Positions 3,177-63,416 of a stretch of 64,000 bases of DNA are shown here, one piece after another (position 1 is the first letter of the stretch; every line of letters begins with the position of its first letter). The stretch comes from Nitrosotalea sp. (lineage in GTDB: Archaea; Thermoproteota; Nitrososphaeria; Nitrososphaerales; Nitrosopumilaceae): NCBI GenBank assembly GCA_025451075.1, contig JANWLA010000022.1:1-64000 (forward strand), given 5' to 3'. The translations under genes and the position numbers were made by a program. A model generated the notes under the pieces. That model was not told the origin of the DNA. It saw only the letters and a list, made by a program, of their open reading frames with translations, and searched no databases.

Positions 3177-6100
3177 TTATTTGCTGGCAAAAGTGACTTG
3201 ATAGTAAAATCTGGTCACCTGGTCTTTTTTGATGACTTGAACTCCCCACTGTCCATCTGGTATTACATCACCAGAGTGTGCTGGAATTATACTAAACTGT
3301 TGCAGTCTTACCCCTGTTCCAGAATAGCCAACAAGATAGTCCATGCCACCAACCATGGCTGTTTGGTATAGTGAACCAGACTTGACTGTAGACTTGATTA
3401 CTTTGCATCCCAGGTCAGGCCCAATTATGCAAGTGCCATCCTGTGAGCTCACCTTGATGCTTACAGAGTTTTCATCACCAGGGTTTACTCGAAGAAGGCC
3501 ATCGAGTTCTTTTGGATAATAAGTTGTATTTGCAACTAACTTTGAGTCAAGATTTACAGCAACAACAGATTCCGAGAGTTGGTTAGTCTTTTCTATAAAC
3601 AGGTTAGCTGACTTTGACGGCTTTTGAGTTGGACCTATAGTCAACGGAGCAAGTACTGTAGGAGTGCTAGTAGAGTTTGTAGTCTGGTTCATGCCAGTTG
3701 AAGGTGTTGTGTTGGTTTGGTTTGCAATAGGAATTATTTGTGGAGGTAGTTTGTCTACCACGTTAAAGTATGCATTGAATGTCCCAAATGGCACCTGAGC
3801 TACAATTGTATAATTTCCAAGCTGAGCATTTGATGGAATTTTGTAATTATAACTAAAGGAGCCATACTGATCAAACGGTACAGTTGTTGTTGGTACTACG
3901 TTGCCTTTCATTGATACAACTTGTCCCTCACTAATTGTGGTATCGTTTGCCAAGCCAAATGCAAGATCTACATCATTGATAGAAATTATGTAACTTGTTC
4001 GCCCAGTTACAAGAACAGTTTGGCCAGGAAGATACTTGTCGGTATCAGTTGTCATGAAGAGCTGCAACTTGTCAGAGCTTGTTGTAAATGGATCAGATAC
4101 GTTAAATGATCCAATTATGCTATTTGCCATGTACTGGACATAAACCTTGTAGGTCCCAGTCTTCCAGATACCAGTGTGGAATGGTACAGTGACATAATAT
4201 TGCCCTCCTTGATTTACAGTGGCATCACCACGGTATATCTGCTGTCCATCATTTGAATAAATTAAAACTTGGACTGTGGATGAGGTATCTTGTGATGCAG
4301 CATTTTGTGTTGGAACAACTTCTCCCCATATTTTTGCTACATCTGTTGACAGATAATCCGTCTTGTCAGTCATCAAGACAATTGGAGCAATATCCTGACC
4401 TGGCTGTGGATTTTTGGATACTTGGAAGAATAGATCAGAGTTGGTATTTACCGAAGTTATCTTTATTCTGTAAATTCCATAAACATTGATAGTTGGATCA
4501 AATACGGGTGAAGACGACCTGTCAGTGAGTATTTGCGCACCTGTTTTTGCAGTACTCGGTATTGTCCAAGTCCATGAAAAAGCCCCGTTGACAATAGGTA
4601 GAGGAAATGATGCCTGTTCTCCATCAGGTTTTACCAAGCTTAATGTGAAGGATGATGTACTTGTAAGTGCTGAAATTTTTCCATTTAGTTGTACAGTATC
4701 ACCTACACCGTAAACTTTCTTATCAGTACTTGCTACTACCAAACCTTGTGAGCCAGTTGCAAGAGGACTATATACAGTAAAGGTGGCATATGTAACCATA
4801 CTATTGTAAGTAGCTTTCAGAGTATAATTTCCTGGCTGGTATACTCCCGATTGAAGTATTTGTTGAGTCTGGAAGTTACCATTAGCATCAGGGAATGCAA
4901 AGTAGGATAACGATGTTGATCCAGATGCAGTATAATTCCCTCCCATGATTTGAATATTAGCATGTGAATTACCACCAGAAGACAATGGTAACCCTGTTGA
5001 ATTTAGCACTAACATTGTCACACTAGCTGCTCCATTTTGAGTAGCCAGTTGAATAGGATTTAGGATTTTTCCAGATATAGTAATTGGATCACCTATCGCA
5101 TACAGACTTTTGTTTGTAACAATACTAAACGGAGATGATGGTGAGATGATAGCTTTGTAATCTGATGGATTTTGTACAACAACAAAATCAGCTTCGGCAG
5201 TACCTTGAGGTATTGAAACAATTGCACGGTAATTTCCGAGACCAGCAGATGTTCCAATAAGACCTAACTTGTATGTAAAAGTATTATCAGTCTGAAGATT
5301 CACTATAGTTTTTATGTTTACAGTATTAAGAGCTGCACCACCATTACTTGTTGTTTGTATTATTTGCAGACTTGGATTCAATCCAAGATTTTGTAATCCC
5401 TGAAGTAGTGTACTACCTTGTAGTGTGACAGTATCACCAGGAGCATATGCGACTTTGTCAGTAGACAATGTTATCACATGTGTTTGTGTTTGTGCTGATA
5501 GTAATACAAAAGTAGTAGAGGCAGATGCACCACCATATGTAGCAGTTACTTGATATATCCCATAGACAGGATTGACGCTGTTAATAGCCAGCCCTGAGCT
5601 GCCAGCACTGCTTTGATATGGGTTTACCGAAGTAATATGTCCTTGAGAGTCAGGAAACAAATTTCCTTGGTATACTAGGACATTAGTCGGATCATAGACC
5701 TTGTATTGTACAGGCGTAAGTGCAATCACATTTGAAACAGTGCCTAGCAATACGATAGGTTGCGAATTTGTATAGTTGGACTTGTCTGTTGATATCGTTA
5801 ATGTTGTTGGAGCAGCTTGTGTTGGAGGAACAAATGCGGTGGAACCAAGTGAAAATGTAGAAGATGTTTGTGTACCACCATAAGATGCAGAGATGGTGTA
5901 TGTCCCTTCAGCAAATCCAAGAACTTCATCAGTTTTTACAGATGTTGAGAACTTTAAATCATTTCCAGGATAAAGCGTAAATGTTTTTGTGAACCCTTGC
6001 GGTCCTGACAACATTATATTGACAGTTTGTGGAATTGAAGATACCGCAGAATCTTTGACAAGCTGTGAAACTTGGCCTGAAATATTTACAAAGTCTCCAA

Positions 6101-13638: not shown

Positions 13639-14136
13639 TCAATATCTAATTCGGCTCTTTTCCAGATTTCTTTTGGTTATGAGAACGTATGAACATCCTG
13701 TAACTAATACACTCTGCAGAGTTTTTGTTATCACATCGATTGTACCAACATCATTTTGCATTCCCACAATTGGCAGATCAATGGTTCTTGATACAACATA
13801 AAAGGCAATTAGAGACATGGAACCTACAAGCACTATTACATATGGCATTTCATTCTGGACACTTTTTAGCATCCAGATACCAACTGGAATGTATACTAGA
13901 GCAACAATCAAGAAAAATATAGTTTGTATCTTTCCGCCTAGATCAAGTTCAGACCATTGGGATGTATCAAGATCGTTAGTTTCTTGGCCTGTTTCCTTGT
14001 CACTCGCCATCTCATGAAAGCCATCACCGCTTTCATCTGTGAATTGTTCGTATGTAACCACAAAGTAAATTGCGCTAGTTTCTAGCATCGTCACTATTAC
14101 AGCATATGAAATCAGTTGAGACAAGTTTACATTCAC
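13639..14136 (-). CDS. Four-TM membrane protein, paralog of 56325..56735
   Basis: Shares the IDLPIVGMQNDVGTIDVITK / VSLPLVGIQEDVGIVDILAK motif and topology. Confidence 0.65.
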   Translation of the reverse strand: MNVNLSQLISYAVIVTMLETSAIYFVVTYEQFTDESGDGFHEMASDKETGQETNDLDTSQWSELDLGGKIQTIFFLIVALVYIPVGIWMLKSVQNEMPYVIVLVGSMSLIAFYVVSRTIDLPIVGMQNDVGTIDVITKTLQSVLVTGCSYVLITKRNLEKSRIRY

Positions 14137-14147
14137 ATTATATCATC

Positions 14148-14477
14148 TCAATATCGTATTTTTACTGCCTGGGCAATTTCTATAAATTTCTGCATTTCAT
14201 TGAAAAAACATATTCCTTTTTCAGTAATGGTAAAAATGCGACTCCCCTTGTCACATGTAGAATTTATCAGTCCAAAATCTGACAACTTTTGACATTTTTC
14301 AATCGCAGTATAATGTGATAGATTGGCACTTCTAGTTATAGCAGATATTATTGTACCATTTCTTCCATAGTCCACAATGACACGTAAAATGTCAAATACA
14401 ACACCCAACTCTGATCTATATTGTTGTTTTAACATATCATTCAATTCTAAAATTGGTATATTATATTTCAGGGACAC
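14148..14477 (-). CDS. Winged-helix transcriptional regulator, paralog of 25872..26159
   Basis: YRSELGVVFDILRVIVDYGRNGTIISAITRSANLSHYTAIEKCQKLSDFGLI. Confidence 0.8.
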   Translation of the reverse strand: MSLKYNIPILELNDMLKQQYRSELGVVFDILRVIVDYGRNGTIISAITRSANLSHYTAIEKCQKLSDFGLINSTCDKGSRIFTITEKGICFFNEMQKFIEIAQAVKIRY

Positions 14478-14508
14478 TTGACTAAGTATTGTTTTTCTTG
14501 TATGCCAG

Positions 14509-14832
14509 TTATTTCTTTTTCACTATTGCCACAAAAAATAGTGCAAGAATGACAAATCCAGTAGATGACAATATCACGTCAATAGTTGTTGCCTCTACAG
14601 ATGGTAGAAATATTTCCATTCTGGGTAGTATGGCTCGGAATGCATAGATCCCAAAGGCAGCACTAACAAAAAGAAGTCTTGTCAATTTGGTGCGCCTGTA
14701 TGCAAATAGTGATACTACAAGCAAAAAGGCGGCAAATATGCCAGTTGCAAAATCAAGAGACTCTTGAAAATCAGGGGACTCGCCACCAACTTCTGTCAGA
14801 CCATTTACTGCAAACAAAATTTGTTCTAACAA
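14509..14832 (-). CDS. Three-TM small membrane protein
   Basis: Three hydrophobic segments with basic cytoplasmic linker; start adjoins HTH stop. Confidence 0.55.
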   Translation of the reverse strand: MLEQILFAVNGLTEVGGESPDFQESLDFATGIFAAFLLVVSLFAYRRTKLTRLLFVSAAFGIYAFRAILPRMEIFLPSVEATTIDVILSSTGFVILALFFVAIVKKK

Positions 14833-15384
14833 CTATGCGTCAGTCTCCTCTGTTTTGGAAGATATCTGCAAGAAAAGATCTGCAAACCTGCTCAGCATCT
14901 TATCCCAGACACTTGGATGATAAGTCTTGAGTGCAGCCGCTATGCTTTGCATGTCAGTTATTGTATACCGTATTGTTCTTCCCTCTTTTATAGAACTGAC
15001 CAAACCAGATTCTTCAAGTCTATGCATATGCCAGCTTATAGTGGGTGCAGAGAATCCCTTGAAATTTATGATTTCACTTTGCGTTGATTTTGGATGCTCC
15101 ATAAGATATGTGAGTATGTCCATGGCAGTTTCTTGTCTTAAAAAGGCAAGTATGTTATGTTCTGCATCCAACACTTCAACTGCATAATAATGTCTATAGA
15201 CGTTAATTCGTCTAGATTTTACCTTTCCAGATCTTTCCAGAATATCCAGATGGTGCTGAGTTGCACCCATGCCTACTTCTAATTCTCTTGTAATCATTCT
15301 AAGATGCGCACCTGGATTTTTTTTAATGTAATCGTATATGCGTTTTCTGTTTTCAGAATCATCTTCATCTTTTTCATCTCGCAA
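14833..15384 (-). CDS. Tandem winged-helix ArsR-like regulator
   Basis: Two wHTH units (RKRIYDYIKKNPGAHLRMITRELEVGMGATQHHLDILER; TQSEIINFKGFSAPTISWHMHRLEESGLV). Confidence 0.8.
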   Translation of the reverse strand: MRDEKDEDDSENRKRIYDYIKKNPGAHLRMITRELEVGMGATQHHLDILERSGKVKSRRINVYRHYYAVEVLDAEHNILAFLRQETAMDILTYLMEHPKSTQSEIINFKGFSAPTISWHMHRLEESGLVSSIKEGRTIRYTITDMQSIAAALKTYHPSVWDKMLSRFADLFLQISSKTEETDA

Positions 15385-15558
15385 CAGTCTTCTCCTTCTA
15401 CCACTAGAGACTTGCTATAATAAAGAGTAATGACACTATAGGTACAACAAGCTAAGTATCGATGTAATAATATTTAATTTTGCCATACCAAACTTGACAA
15501 AACTTAGTCAGATGTTCCTCAATTATAATATACAAAATTTGCCATCTACATTTTTGAG

Positions 15559-15849
15559 GTGAAATTAGACAACGTGAAAAACACAAGAATGCTCTTGGCA
15601 ATTCCGCTAGTAGTAATAGCAATAATAGCTATTGGAGTAGGAATGTCAAGCAACGTATCGGCCCAACCAACTGCATCAACCACACCAATTATTGATCCAC
15701 AAGATGGCCCAAATGAGATACAGACTGCTGATAACAGTACAGACAACCAAAAAGACGGTGAGACAAACGATGATCACAGTAATGCAAAGATAGGACAAAT
15801 CGGTGATGGTGACGGAGAGCAAAAAGACCAGACTGAATTGAAAAAGTAG
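15559..15849 (+). CDS. Small secreted acidic protein
   Basis: Signal peptide (LLAIPLVVIAIIAIGVGMSSNVSAQ) then Asp/Asn/Gln-rich tail. Confidence 0.55.
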   Translation: MKLDNVKNTRMLLAIPLVVIAIIAIGVGMSSNVSAQPTASTTPIIDPQDGPNEIQTADNSTDNQKDGETNDDHSNAKIGQIGDGDGEQKDQTELKK

Positions 15850-20534: not shown

Positions 20535-20645
20535 TATAACGGTAACATTTATGAGATTAAAATTGATTTCGAAATTATACCGATTGTTTTGAAAATCTGT
20601 GCTTTTGCATTACAACATAAATATGAACAGTTAAAGATCTGTTAC

Positions 20646-21062
20646 ATGGTACAGATTCAAGCCTCTGTTGAAATTGATGCCTCTATCGATAAGGTGTGGA
20701 GCATAATCTCTGACCTTGATTCAGAACCAAAGTTCTGGAAGGGAACAAAAGAGGTAAGAAACATCTCAAAGGATGGAAATACCATAACACGTGAAGTCAC
20801 AATAGCTTTCAAGGATTCAAAATGCATGCAGACAGTAATCCTATATCCAAAAGAAAAGATTCAGATCCAATTCACAAAGGGGGTAATCGAGGGAACAAAG
20901 ACACTCACACTTTCCCAATCAGGCAACAAAACAAGACTTGACACCCTATGGGAAATGAAACTAACAGGCATGATGGGAATGTTTACGGGCATGATAAAAA
21001 AGCACATCCAGAGCGGCTCAGAGCAGGCCCTAGAGGGCATCAAACAAGAAGCCCAGAGATAA
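20646..21062 (+). CDS. SRPBCC (START-like) family protein, paralog 1
   Basis: VQIQASVEIDASIDKVWSIISDLDSEPKFWKGTKEVRN; related to 53232 and 62949 ORFs. Confidence 0.75.
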   Translation: MVQIQASVEIDASIDKVWSIISDLDSEPKFWKGTKEVRNISKDGNTITREVTIAFKDSKCMQTVILYPKEKIQIQFTKGVIEGTKTLTLSQSGNKTRLDTLWEMKLTGMMGMFTGMIKKHIQSGSEQALEGIKQEAQR

Positions 21063-53231: not shown

Positions 53232-53717
53232 ATGGTAGAAATAAAAGTCAAGATACAGATTGACGCACCAATAGAAAAAGTCTGGAATATCATCTCGCAA
53301 GTTGACAATGATTCCGAGTTTTGGAATATTACCAAACTGCTAAAAAATATCTCAAAGAAAGAAAATGAGATAGTGCGAGAGATAATGCTGGACAAAATTG
53401 ACAAATGCAGTCAAACAGTAACTTTCCTGCCAAAAGAAGCAATACACGTGCAATGGACAAAAGGAGCGATAACTGGCACAAAGGACATGTCTTTGACCAT
53501 ACTTGGAAGCTCAACACTTCTAGAAGTCAAGATGAACTATGCCATTTCGGGTCCATCTCGATTCTTCCCTGGAAAGATAACAGAAAAACTGCAGATTGAG
53601 GCAGAGTATGCGTTAGATCTTATCAAGGAAAAAGCAGAGGGCAAGATGCATGTCATACCAATGGAGCCTAGAAAATTCTGGGCGGAAATGATAGAGCATG
53701 GTAACAAAAACCCATAA
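53232..53717 (+). CDS. SRPBCC family protein, paralog 2
   Basis: VEIKVKIQIDAPIEKVWNIISQVDNDSEFWNITKLLKN. Confidence 0.75.
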   Translation: MVEIKVKIQIDAPIEKVWNIISQVDNDSEFWNITKLLKNISKKENEIVREIMLDKIDKCSQTVTFLPKEAIHVQWTKGAITGTKDMSLTILGSSTLLEVKMNYAISGPSRFFPGKITEKLQIEAEYALDLIKEKAEGKMHVIPMEPRKFWAEMIEHGNKNP

Positions 53718-55064: not shown

Positions 55065-55559
55065 TCAATATGGCGGAGGCTGTACTATGAGTTGACCTCT
55101 CATTGTGGGTTGGTGAAATGTACACAAGTAAGTAAATGTTCCAGTGGTGTTTGCAACAAATGTTATAGTTTTATTCTCACGGGGATGTACAACAACATCG
55201 ATGTTATTGTACGGTTTGTCATAGATAGTAAATGAATGATTATCTCCACCAGGTTCTTCGATGTTAAAGAAATGAATTGTCACTTCATCACCTTTGAAGA
55301 CAGCTATGACGGGCATACTGTAAATATCACGCGGCATACCCATTTCGGTCTCATTAAAACCAGGTATGTCACTATCAAATAGGTAAAATTCCTTATGTTT
55401 GCCAACATATTGTTGTTGAGTGTTATTTTGTTGAATATTCAGATTATTGACATGTTGTGTAGTCAAGAGGGGTGCTGTTATGATAAATAATGCAATAGCA
55501 ATAGCAATTGCGGCAACAGATATTCCTAATATTATTACAGTAGTATTTGCGGCCAACAT
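55065..55559 (-). CDS. Membrane-anchored cupredoxin
   Basis: N-terminal TM; GDNHSFTIYD and GTFTYLCTFHQPTMRGQLIV (H...C-x2-H-x4-M copper site). Confidence 0.85.
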   Translation of the reverse strand: MLAANTTVIILGISVAAIAIAIALFIITAPLLTTQHVNNLNIQQNNTQQQYVGKHKEFYLFDSDIPGFNETEMGMPRDIYSMPVIAVFKGDEVTIHFFNIEEPGGDNHSFTIYDKPYNNIDVVVHPRENKTITFVANTTGTFTYLCTFHQPTMRGQLIVQPPPY

Positions 55560-55594
55560 GAATTTTCATTACTCGTAGATTTTAATGGTGCCTA

Positions 55595-55616
55595 CCATTC
55601 TCATAGATGAGAATGG
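55595..55616. promoter_or_regulatory. Operator-like inverted repeat A
   Basis: CCATTCTCAT-AG-ATGAGAATGG, 10-bp perfect arms. Confidence 0.65.
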
Positions 55617-55702
55617 AAGGTAGCATATTATGCATTATAAAAAAAATTTATTGTCGTGAATAAAAATATCTATTAGCACCATGCGACGAGATTATATAGA
55701 CA

Positions 55703-55972
55703 ATGGTTGAATTATCGATTACCAACTATGTACTTCTTGCTGCACATATCATAGTTGGATCTATTCTAGTTTTCTTTGCCACAAGAGCGTTCAAGAGAAC
55801 GAAATATTTTCCAATGGCCCTTCTGGTAATAGGGTTTACACTGCTAGTCCTCGGAGAAACTGTCATTGAATACATATTTGCATTTACAGGCGAGAGTTTT
55901 GGAAAAATAATTGAAGAAGGGTTTGAGATAGCAGGATTCATTGTACTAATCATAGCAGTCAAGAAAAGCTAG
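55703..55972 (+). CDS. Three-TM small membrane protein
   Basis: Three hydrophobic segments; 3 nt from downstream HTH gene. Confidence 0.6.
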   Translation: MVELSITNYVLLAAHIIVGSILVFFATRAFKRTKYFPMALLVIGFTLLVLGETVIEYIFAFTGESFGKIIEEGFEIAGFIVLIIAVKKS

Positions 55973-55975
55973 AAA

Positions 55976-56317
55976 ATGACAAATGATGATGAGATCCTAA
56001 CAATACTGGGAGATGAATATAGCAGAAAAATTCTCTCAATACTTGCAAAAAATGAAATGAATGCTCTTGAAATATCTACAAAACTTGACATTCCAGCTTC
56101 GACAACTTATAGGAAGATCAAGAATCTGGAAAGTCTTGCCCTCATAAAGAAGACCAAGGTCATTCGTACACTTGAGGGCCTTGATGAAAGTTACTACAAG
56201 AGCCTAGTCTCAGGAATAGAGGTAAAGTTTCGAAATGGTGAAATGTCATGTAAAATCGAAAAATTTACCATGGATGAAAAGATACAAAGACTTTGGGAAA
56301 AATTCTCAGAAAAATAA
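55976..56317 (+). CDS. ArsR-like winged-helix regulator
   Basis: DEYSRKILSILAKNEMNALEISTKLDIPASTTYRKIKNLESLALI. Confidence 0.82.
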   Translation: MTNDDEILTILGDEYSRKILSILAKNEMNALEISTKLDIPASTTYRKIKNLESLALIKKTKVIRTLEGLDESYYKSLVSGIEVKFRNGEMSCKIEKFTMDEKIQRLWEKFSEK

Positions 56318-56324
56318 GTCGGGT

Positions 56325-56735
56325 TTATTGTGAAATGGCTATCTTTGCATTCTTCCAGTTTCGTAGCAGTAGTAAAGATATTACTATTATAGAGCCCTGA
56401 GTAATCTTGGCAAGTATATCTACTATGCCTACATCTTCTTGTATGCCTACTAGTGGCAAGCTAACAGTTCTTGATACAGCATATAGTCCAATCAAGGCCA
56501 GTGAGACAAGACTTGCTATTACATATGGAGCTCTGCTGTGGAGATTGTTCTTTATCATCCATATTCCAAGCGGAAGATATACAATTGCCGCAGTTGCAAA
56601 AAGCATTGTCTGAATCTGGCTAGGAACATCACTTGATTCTTGCATTTGAGAGTATGCTGTAACAAAATAGATTCCGCTGTTTCCAAGCACTAGAATTACT
56701 ATAATCATAATGAACTGTTGTGTTGATTTTTTCAT
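56325..56735 (-). CDS. Four-TM membrane protein, paralog of 13639..14136
   Basis: VSRTVSLPLVGIQEDVGIVDILAKITQ. Confidence 0.65.
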   Translation of the reverse strand: MKKSTQQFIMIIVILVLGNSGIYFVTAYSQMQESSDVPSQIQTMLFATAAIVYLPLGIWMIKNNLHSRAPYVIASLVSLALIGLYAVSRTVSLPLVGIQEDVGIVDILAKITQGSIIVISLLLLRNWKNAKIAISQ

Positions 56736-56770
56736 TATTTGTAATTTGTATTACATATTTAATTGTCTAA

Positions 56771-56797
56771 CTACCATTTTCATCAACGAGAATGCTA
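56771..56797. promoter_or_regulatory. Operator-like inverted repeat B
   Basis: CTACCATTTTCATCAACGAGAATGCTA, aligned with site A at same spacing. Confidence 0.55.
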
Positions 56798-56901
56798 AAA
56801 ATAAAAAAGAAGACATTTGTCAGAAAAAGAAAATGATGTGTCAAAAGAAGTTTTTCTCATATTGTGGATTTTAGAAAAAAATAGAATGTAGTTTAGCTAA
56901 A

Positions 56902-57120
56902 CTACGGTCCAGATTCCCCTGATTCAGTAGAGCCTGATTTGGCTGGTTCTGTTGAATTAGATGTAGATTTGTTAGTCTCTTGAAGATTCAGAGCATTCTC
57001 CGTATGTTCCTCTCCAGGTAATACCAGTGCCTTATCTCCCGTGATAGTTTTAAGACCTATCACTACAACTGCAATTGCAATCATGGTAATTGCAATGCCA
57101 ACTAGAATTTTTTTATTCAT
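56902..57120 (-). CDS. Small single-TM protein with Ser/Glu-rich tail
   Basis: N-terminal TM then SGSTESGESGP tail; operator C upstream. Confidence 0.5.
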   Translation of the reverse strand: MNKKILVGIAITMIAIAVVVIGLKTITGDKALVLPGEEHTENALNLQETNKSTSNSTEPAKSGSTESGESGP

Positions 57121-57158
57121 AACATCGTTTTCTTGTATAGACTATAATGTCTAGTTGT

Positions 57159-57180
57159 CATTCCTATGGATGAAAATGGT
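57159..57180. promoter_or_regulatory. Operator-like inverted repeat C
   Basis: TCATTCCTATGGATGAAAATGG, 17/22 identical to site A by eye. Confidence 0.5.
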
Positions 57181-57217
57181 AGCATCCGTTTTATTCTGAC
57201 TGGCATATTAGTGATTC

Positions 57218-57451
57218 ATGAAAATATATTCATATGTACTAATGACACTTGTCATACTTGCCACAAGTGCACCAACACTAGCAATTGCACAATATGAAAA
57301 CGATGGTGGTAGTCAACCAGACACGATGATCCTAACTATCTTCAGTTTAACATTATACATTACCATATTTGCAATACTTGGCATAGTCGGATATTCAGTT
57401 TGGAAAGTATTCAAGATAAGACAAAAGGCTGCTAAAATGAAATTGGCGTAA
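57218..57451 (+). CDS. Small secreted/membrane protein
   Basis: Signal peptide plus one TM; operonic with next gene. Confidence 0.55.
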   Translation: MKIYSYVLMTLVILATSAPTLAIAQYENDGGSQPDTMILTIFSLTLYITIFAILGIVGYSVWKVFKIRQKAAKMKLA

Positions 57452-57456
57452 TCTTT

Positions 57457-57993
57457 ATGCGAATTTTTTCCATCCAACCATACTTGAAAATATCCATGTT
57501 ACTAGCACTTGTACTTGTTCCAGCAGTGGCTTATGCAGATGATGGGGGAAGATTTAGCGTACCTGATACGCTGGGTTGGTTAGCCATTGGATGCGGCATG
57601 GCAGCAAATATCTCGCTTGTCACATTCAAAATGATAAAGAAGATGCGCGTCATGAAATTAGTTGGGGGTTCTGGCACCTCACAAAGTTTGACATCCATGT
57701 ACCAACCAGTATTGAATTTTCACATCATGTTAAATTCAGTAGGATTCTTTGCAGGTTTGTCGCACGGATTTATACTCATTCGAGGCCTCGATTACATCTC
57801 ACTTTCATTGGCCATAGTCATGACGGTGTCAATGATTAGTGGCATAATACTTCGATTCACATCTGGTAAAAATTTAAAATTCTTCAGCAGACTAGTTCAT
57901 GGACAAGCCGTTCTTGCGGCAATGCTTGTAACACTTGTTGTTTTACATGTGATTACAAGATGGCATCATGGAATTATCATGAATTTCATATGA
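57457..57993 (+). CDS. Multi-TM His-rich membrane protein, possible b-type heme protein
   Basis: FHIMLNSVGFFAGLSHGF and LVHGQAVLAAMLVTLVVLHVITRWHHG place His in or near TM segments. Confidence 0.55.
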   Translation: MRIFSIQPYLKISMLLALVLVPAVAYADDGGRFSVPDTLGWLAIGCGMAANISLVTFKMIKKMRVMKLVGGSGTSQSLTSMYQPVLNFHIMLNSVGFFAGLSHGFILIRGLDYISLSLAIVMTVSMISGIILRFTSGKNLKFFSRLVHGQAVLAAMLVTLVVLHVITRWHHGIIMNFI

Positions 57994-58231: not shown

Positions 58232-58400
58232 TTAATTATAGATACCATTGCTTGAGCACAATAGATGACATTTTTCTCCCAAATACTGGACAAACTTGAT
58301 GCTATACCTTCCTGCACCACATCCAATGTCTGCGGCATGTATGCTCGAAAGGTCTCGGAGCTTGTTTGTAATAAATAATATTGGACCAATCTCAACCATA
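58232..58400 (-). pseudogene. Truncated methyltransferase fragment, paralogous to 61693..62496
   Basis: VEIGPILFITNKLRDLSSIHAADIGCGAGRYSIKFVQYLGEKCHLLC matches the intact gene; no C-terminal domain. Confidence 0.65.
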
Positions 58401-58933
58401 AGATTATGATACTGAATACAAAAAAATTGAATGAAAAGAAATGATTGAACTGATACATCGATAAAAAATATCTTAATATTTTTATTTTGAGCCAATTTGG
58501 GTAAAGAAGATAAGTCTTCTGTAACATGGTAACTTAACAAGGTTCATCAGTCTCTAAATAGTGAAATATTGAAAAATAACTATGGAAAAAATTAACAATA
58601 CGATGAGAACAAGACGCATAGACGAAAATCTATACTGGATGGAACAAAAAACAGGTATGATATGTGTAAAGTTCCACCATCAATAGAGCAAGTATCTGAT
58701 GAACTTAAACGTCCAGTGTATGCAAACCTGTAAGAGTTACCTGTATTTCATGCCTGAAATTTTAGAATTGACTTATACCAAAAATATTGAATGCGAGGTG
58801 TCCGGCCCGATCCATCCTTTTTTAAACTAGAAGAATTCTACCATAATTTTTTAAATCATACATGCCCAATACGTCTAGAAAATTAAAATTCTATACTTTA
58901 GATGGTACTCATGTACAAATGAATTCTGTGAGA

Positions 58934-61692: not shown

Positions 61693-62496
61693 TCATTGGT
61701 TATTTTCAATCACAAGTAACGTATTCTGATCTTTCCACGATATTTTATCCAGATCATCATAATGATTCAATAGGTTTTGTACAAACCTGTGTAATGCTTC
61801 TCTAAATTCGTGTTTTTTATAAAATTTGAAAGTTGAATAATGATGATTTTTTGCTTGCTCTACAAGTTTTTCTAGCGGATAGACTCTATGATGTTCAAAA
61901 AACTGTACTGAATTGATGTTTAGATTTGGATCCTTTTCGAAGGCTGACTTTAACTCATCTAGCTCATAAAGACGTGTTTCCTTTTTGTTAAATGAAGGAA
62001 AATGAGTTCCCCAGATAGTTTTTGCATTTTGGTCCCGCAATCTTGTATATATGAATAATTTTCCATTATTTTTGAGCACTCTTGAAGACTCTTTTAGAAA
62101 ATTTTGTAGTGAAAAATGATGAACTGCGTTAAATGACATTACGCAATCAAGTGAATCCGTCTGTAATGGTATTTTGTGCGAATCACTCCGTATTGGAGTG
62201 AAATTTACAATGTTGTTTTTTACAAAGTGTTGATTTAGGTGGCGTAGCATTTCCCCATTATTATCCAAACAAAATAGATGACATTTTTCTCCTAAATGTT
62301 GAACCAGTTTAAGGCTATATCTTCCCGCACCACATCCAATATCAGCAGCATGTATGTTTGAGAGGCTTTGTAGCTTGTTAGCTATAAACAGTATGGGTCC
62401 AAGATCTGTAGTTCTTAATTCACGATAGCGTGGAGCAATATGCAAAAAATGATTATACATTTCACCTAGCGTAGATTTTTTTCCAACTATTTTCAA
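61693..62496 (-). CDS. Class I SAM-dependent methyltransferase
   Basis: IHAADIGCGAGRYSLKLVQHLGEKCHLFCLDNNGEM; LDCVMSFNAVHHF. Confidence 0.88.
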   Translation of the reverse strand: MKIVGKKSTLGEMYNHFLHIAPRYRELRTTDLGPILFIANKLQSLSNIHAADIGCGAGRYSLKLVQHLGEKCHLFCLDNNGEMLRHLNQHFVKNNIVNFTPIRSDSHKIPLQTDSLDCVMSFNAVHHFSLQNFLKESSRVLKNNGKLFIYTRLRDQNAKTIWGTHFPSFNKKETRLYELDELKSAFEKDPNLNINSVQFFEHHRVYPLEKLVEQAKNHHYSTFKFYKKHEFREALHRFVQNLLNHYDDLDKISWKDQNTLLVIENNQ

Positions 62497-62948: not shown

Positions 62949-63416
62949 ATGATTGAAATCACCGCAAAAATAATGATAAACTCTACTGCTAAAAAAGTCT
63001 GGAGTGTCATATCCGCAATTGAGAGAGATCCTTATTTTTGGAAAGGAATGACCAGAGTACGAAATAAATCACGAGACGGCAACGTGTTTACTCGAGAGGT
63101 AACATTGAGTAACTCTGACAAATGCTACCAAAAAATTATTCTTTTTCCAATGGAAGGCATCCACATAAAGTGGACTAGAGGTTCTTTAACAGGTATAAAA
63201 GACATTTTACTAACACAGGTTGGAAACCAAACTCTTTTGGAAGTGGAAATGAACTACGCCATAAGAGGGATTGCACAGCTTCGATCCAGACATATTTCAG
63301 AAGAGTTGAGAAATGAAGCTGAATTGGCGTTACAGTTGATAAAAGAAGACATTGAAAAAATATCGCCTTTTCAAATCAATGAAAGAAAACAATGGGCTGA
63401 CTTGATTCATGAATAA
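62949..63416 (+). CDS. SRPBCC family protein, paralog 3
   Basis: EITAKIMINSTAKKVWSVISAIERDPYFWKGMTRVRNKSRDGNVFTREVTL. Confidence 0.75.
   Translation: MIEITAKIMINSTAKKVWSVISAIERDPYFWKGMTRVRNKSRDGNVFTREVTLSNSDKCYQKIILFPMEGIHIKWTRGSLTGIKDILLTQVGNQTLLEVEMNYAIRGIAQLRSRHISEELRNEAELALQLIKEDIEKISPFQINERKQWADLIHE

Follow-up and report, generated by a model that had tools for sequence, protein, structure and literature searches.

Three conserved palindromes as operators of one small Nitrosotalea regulon, with a winged-helix candidate for their regulator

The gene cluster and its three palindromes

The window (the whole stretch of 64,000 nucleotides that was analysed) comes from a Nitrosotalea genome of 1.66 Mb that is 85% complete. 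Near its end lies a cluster of genes arranged around three inverted repeats (Table 1), for which the gene starts and strands given in the initial annotation agree with the list of open reading frames. The cupredoxin at 55065 matches PF13473 with 33.8 bits against a cut-off of 27, and its His-Cys-His-Met ligands are conserved in orthologs. Gene 55703 encodes a DUF7521 protein (PF24365, 32.8 bits against a cut-off of 27), and gene 55976 a winged-helix (wHTH) protein of 113 amino acids. The four invariant histidines of the 57457 protein lie in helices, and its sequence suggests a possible di-haem membrane cytochrome b; similarity to DUF4405 is weak in 8 of 11 orthologs (17 bits for the window protein, against a cut-off of 26.7), the AF2 model is too poor for a fold search, and no PDB relative was found. 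The remaining targets, membrane or secreted proteins, are assigned to no family. The earlier description of a redox cluster has its basis in one intact type-1 copper protein and one putative four-His membrane protein; that the regulon serves copper/redox physiology of the envelope is the most parsimonious reading, made with moderate confidence. Two side observations concern other genes of the window: the frame at 58232-58540 resembles a truncated copy of the 5' part of the methyltransferase-like gene 61693-62496, and three similar small proteins (20589-21062, 53232-53717 and 62949-63416), one of which matches Polyketide_cyc2 just below cut-off, suggest local gene duplication.

Table 1. Genes, operators and promoter elements of the cluster (window coordinates; strand "." for palindromes)
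Feature	Position	Strand	Basis or remark
Membrane-anchored type-1 cupredoxin	55065..55559	-	PF13473; ligands H, C, H, M intact
TATA-like TTAAAA, cupredoxin promoter	55580..55585	-	sequence
Operator A, 28-bp palindrome	55592..55619	.	between cupredoxin and DUF7521-wHTH; matrix score 40.5
Small-TM gene start remnant GTGAATAAAAATATCTATTAG	55656..55676	+	alignment with L066-L069 and L114
DUF7521 small membrane protein, directly upstream of wHTH	55703..55972	+	PF24365 above cut-off
Winged-helix protein, proposed operator binder	55976..56317	+	PF12840 and PF01022 above cut-off; model; orthologs
4-TM protein; target, near-constant wHTH neighbour	56325..56735	-	locus comparison
TATA-like TTAAAT, 4-TM gene promoter	56757..56762	-	conserved in relatives
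Operator B	56771..56798	.	35 nt before 4-TM gene 56325-56735; matrix score 32.3
Small protein, N-terminal TM and acidic tail; target	56902..57120	-	locus comparison
TATA-like TTATAG, 57120 promoter	57142..57147	-	sequence
Operator C	57155..57182	.	common to divergent 57120 (34 nt) and 57218 (35 nt); matrix score 29.0
TATA-like TTTTATT region, 57218 promoter	57188..57194	+	sequence
Signal-peptide/TM protein; first gene of target operon	57218..57451	+	locus comparison
Membrane protein, four invariant His (H89, H103, H148, H164); DUF4405-like	57457..57993	+	ortholog alignment

Three copies of the repeat had been reported ahead of the minus-strand start codons at 55559, 56735 and 57120, and both their letters and their positions proved correct on the sequence (A, 55595-55616; B, from 56771; C, 57159-57180). 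Aligned in one register with their conserved flanks included, the three are near-palindromes of 28 bp, and in this register the gap from operator to start codon is 32 nt for the cupredoxin, 35 nt for 56735 and 34 nt for 57120. Site C occupies a divergent intergenic region, as had also been claimed, with 35 nt to the start of 57218 on its other side. The operator consensus, taken from 40 sites, is YTACCATTYTCATNNATGARAATGGTAR.

A pattern search with CTACCATTYTCATNNAYRRGAATG, allowing up to three mismatches, matched only A, B and C across the 1.66-Mb own genome—the missing 15% of which could hide more sites—and the reversed pattern, run as a control, gave no matches. A position matrix made without the window's own sites and without the site of locus L114 gives A, B and C the scores listed in Table 1, against 8.2 for the next-best place in the window; the top score in 100 Markov-shuffled 64-kb sequences was 20.6. 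The matrix and genome scan that the initial annotation had proposed as a check yielded no competing genomic match at up to three mismatches, and window sites above the best of the shuffles.

Promoter position and conservation in the Nitrosopumilaceae

A TATA-like box lies about 27 nt before the start codon, between operator and start; on the minus-strand side, where such stretches had been noted before, they are seen at all three genes (55580, 56757 and 57142). In the 4-TM gene promoters the TATA region carries the conserved string AATTAAAT. Across the window, TATA-like hexamers are in general over-represented at 26-35 nt ahead of starts, which, as far as sequence can tell, is the picture of leaderless promoters. 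Given this picture and the distance of the box from the start, the operator sits just upstream of BRE/TATA. Each operator would thereby abut BRE/TATA in a promoter that is leaderless or has a short leader; between divergent genes a single operator would serve both promoters symmetrically.

Site A lies farther from its plus-strand gene, 83 nt from DUF7521, because the start of a small-TM gene between them has decayed: the remnant GTGAATAAAAATATCTATTAG stands at the standard distance from operator A (55656), and the small-TM gene is intact at the corresponding place in another genome (G079, locus L069). The promoter of the decayed gene probably survives and now drives DUF7521-wHTH with a short leader. 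Of the earlier claim that site A serves 55703, the divergent placement holds; the service itself would run through this surviving promoter.

Of 250 Nitrosopumilaceae genomes, 43 have an ortholog of wHTH 55976. At most of these loci the start codons of the same genes are preceded at 32-37 nt by the palindrome, which stands immediately upstream of a TATA box. Among the fetched loci, the operator stands 34-36 nt before the 4-TM gene in 21 of the 23 promoters with a strong site, at 34-36 nt before the small TM gene in 11 of 11, at 32-36 nt before the cupredoxin in 6 of 6, and at 35-37 nt before 57218 orthologs in 8 of 9. The ninth 57218 ortholog, in N. bavarica, is preceded by a tandem array of three 28-bp operator copies (L068, 8739-8821), the nearest of them at 35 nt. 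Across 19 4-TM promoters, pairwise identity averages 0.68 within the operator, 0.47 over the following 34 nt (TATA region included) and 0.30 over the preceding 50 nt. The motif is kept in orthologous intergenic regions across several genera, the conservation that the initial annotation had asked to see.

Linkage alone does not explain this conservation, since the operator is also kept at unlinked targets. In N. devanaterra the operon of 57218 and 57457 orthologs keeps its operator at 341637, with the wHTH gene about 0.9 Mb away at 1240917, and in several genomes (G118, G058, G028, G128 and G108) a lone target keeps its operator on another contig or at a distant place on the chromosome. In a pattern search of 151 genomes of the family, sites with up to two mismatches were found in 15 of 33 genomes with the wHTH gene against 2 of 118 without it; leaving aside three genomes whose match is off the regulon genes, the counts are 12 of 33 against 2 of 118 (p ~1e-7, uncorrected for shared ancestry). 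Matches of the CTACCTTTATCATTGACAAGAATG type were set aside, since they are part of the coding region of a peroxiredoxin-like gene. Some wHTH-bearing lineages have weak sites only, or none at the DUF7521 promoter, and in family f8, which has the DUF7521-wHTH pair, an operator was looked for and none was recognised. From the sequences, it appears practically certain that the three inverted repeats serve one small Nitrosotalea regulon as operators.

The candidate regulator and its proposed action

The initial annotation had named 55976 as the obvious candidate for the protein that binds these sites, and the comparisons uphold the candidacy: it draws on linkage, co-occurrence, operators at the gene's own promoter and a uniform, largely tree-following spacing of half-sites, which support it well. 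We regard 55976 as the likely regulator that would bind the operators. Wherever a contig end does not cut the locus, DUF7521 is encoded directly upstream of the wHTH gene, family f8 included. Nitrosarchaeum and N. devanaterra-like genomes have just one operator at this place, between the 4-TM gene and DUF7521-wHTH, so that the operon of the candidate regulator carries an operator of its own. The protein matches PF01022 (HTH_5) with 24 bits over a cut-off of 22, which places it with the ArsR-type winged-helix fold, and the Pfam TrmB family with 24.8 bits, below the cut-off of 25.6, which leaves it outside that family. Its predicted fold (pLDDT 77) adds a hairpin and a helix to the winged helix; the nearest fold neighbour is Phr (2p4w), followed by ArsR-type proteins, with CzrA and SmtB among the matches. 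The recognition helix and wing are nearly invariant among orthologs. In an alignment of 23 orthologs no invariant or nearly invariant column is Cys or His, and metal sensing by the wHTH protein itself was rejected on this ground.

The two half-sites are separated by 4 nt in 32 loci and by 5 nt in 12, never mixed within a locus, and the spacing is uniform even in loci with two to five distinct sites. Placed on the wHTH tree, the 5-nt label requires 3 changes, against a mean of 11.6 in shuffles. One isolated switch of spacing occurs, in G005, where both distinct sites changed together. Half-site spacing thus appears largely to follow the wHTH tree, as expected if one regulator binds all sites, and a one-base change that is uniform per locus offers a natural experiment in regulator-operator co-evolution. 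In G093 the wHTH ortholog, matched over part of its length, is broken by an in-frame TGA (C1, 479708-479905), and the 5-nt-spacer operator at 480349 is still perfect.

DUF7521 may act as a membrane-side sensor or anchor; tentative as this is, the protein is the best sensor candidate, being ever-present. A literature search found no paper on DUF7521, and a DUF7521-HTH fusion, looked for in distant relatives, was not found. The window holds a second similar module at 13639-15849, with a paralog of the 4-TM protein (34% identity), a two-HTH regulator with an HVO_0163 N-terminal domain and, directly after it, a small DUF7471-like membrane protein; the own-genome pattern search (up to three mismatches) found no operator there. 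In another genus of the family (G046, locus L222) a DUF7521-like membrane protein comes after a two-HTH protein, and from this arrangement it follows that pairs of an HTH protein and a small membrane protein recur.

The reading that we favour, and consider likely, is that of one small regulon in which a dimer of 55976 would bind the operators, one winged-helix unit per CATTYTCA half-site, and activate the promoters, with DUF7521 as its possible sensor or anchor. From its upstream position the bound protein would activate by helping TBP/TFB to bind. The regulon would comprise the type-1 copper protein, the 4-TM protein, the small TM protein, the operon of the four-His membrane protein and the regulator's own DUF7521-wHTH operon. 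Activation, which we deduce from the position of the operator just upstream of BRE/TATA, is on balance the more probable mode of action. The same operators and the same protein could also be read as a repressor system, in which 55976 bound beside BRE hinders TFB/TBP until a signal releases it. The near end of the operator is some 35 nt from the start codon, where the BRE would be expected to begin, the nearest solved folds (Phr and ArsR-type proteins) are repressors, and autoregulation is common among repressors; yet neither the TATA box nor the start, the places bound by TrmB-type repressors, is ever covered by the site, upstream sites of TrmBL1 activate (PMC4706686), and the fixed TATA spacing on both sides of a common operator suits contact with TBP/TFB. 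We consider repression possible, with the odds against it.

It is less likely still that the operators, though real, are bound by another transcription factor, with 55976 a mere neighbour or target. Two genomes, G085 (97% complete) and G148 (84%), carry operators at target genes and no detectable wHTH ortholog, which means either that the gene is missing from the assemblies or that another protein can use the sites; several paralogous wHTH genes are indeed present in these genomes. Both exceptions are, however, incomplete assemblies, and co-occurrence, constant linkage, operators at the promoter of the wHTH operon and the clustering of spacing on the wHTH tree all speak for 55976. In G085 (L179), two operators lie 630 nt apart, at 4001 and 4630, one of them before a small-TM ortholog. 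That the palindromes are RNA structures, terminators, chance or copies of a repeat element is most improbable: they are inverted repeats, and N. bavarica has its tandem copies, but they lie upstream of TATA boxes and between divergent promoters, keep a constant distance to the starts, are found nowhere but at these promoters in the own genome, and have no match in Rfam when tested as RNA elements.

Beyond the regulon as favoured here, a wider reading can be offered as speculation, and would more probably prove wrong than right: DUF7521-wHTH may be a two-gene transmembrane signalling unit of Nitrososphaerota, in which a tiny membrane sensor holds or releases a winged-helix activator and thereby controls envelope copper/haem redox proteins, with related pairs of HTH and small membrane proteins, such as the second one in the window, running separate regulons.

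Significance and relation to known systems

Literature searches found no description of a regulator together with its operator in ammonia-oxidising archaea; as far as these searches reach, circuits of this kind seem to be undescribed there. For the ammonia-oxidising archaea of acid soils, the regulon offers a concrete, testable gene-control circuit where regulation is almost uncharacterised. According to a 2016 paper on N. devanaterra, mutagenesis was still to be developed for these organisms (PMC4836417). Defining the regulon from sequence supplies what in vitro tests require, with no need for genetics: a short target list, a candidate regulator and the exact sites.

Parallels with characterised regulators exist at the level of fold and of promoter architecture. 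Like the ArsR/SmtB metal sensors (CzrA, SmtB), 55976 has the winged-helix fold and scores above the HTH_5 cut-off; unlike them, its orthologs are without conserved Cys/His and hence without a metal site of the usual kind. The closest solved fold to its model is that of the heat-shock regulator Phr, with a TM-score of 0.70 normalised to the query; the Phr chain, however, has about 198 residues, nearly twice the 113 of 55976, and Phr is named for heat shock; the likeness is one of fold.

At several promoters a palindromic operator stands directly upstream of BRE/TATA, the architecture of TrmBL1 and TFB-RF1; an activator has been deduced from position in the same way for CsmR (PMC13286277). The TrmBL1/Thermococcales glycolytic motif regulon likewise rests on a short palindrome read by an archaeal winged-helix protein, as is predicted for 55976 (PMC4706686). 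TrmBL1, however, is a global regulator for sugars whose sites lie to either side of the promoter, whereas every well-placed site here is upstream, and 55976 is small, with a TrmB score under the cut-off. TFB-RF1 (PF1088) of Pyrococcus furiosus, whose footprint extends from -47 to -70 from the start codon, is a local regulator beside its target, as 55976 would be, and like the present system has a palindrome just upstream of BRE/TATA (PMC5937170). Its operator (TCTG-N5-CAGA), its targets and its lineage are different, and the likeness is one of architecture.
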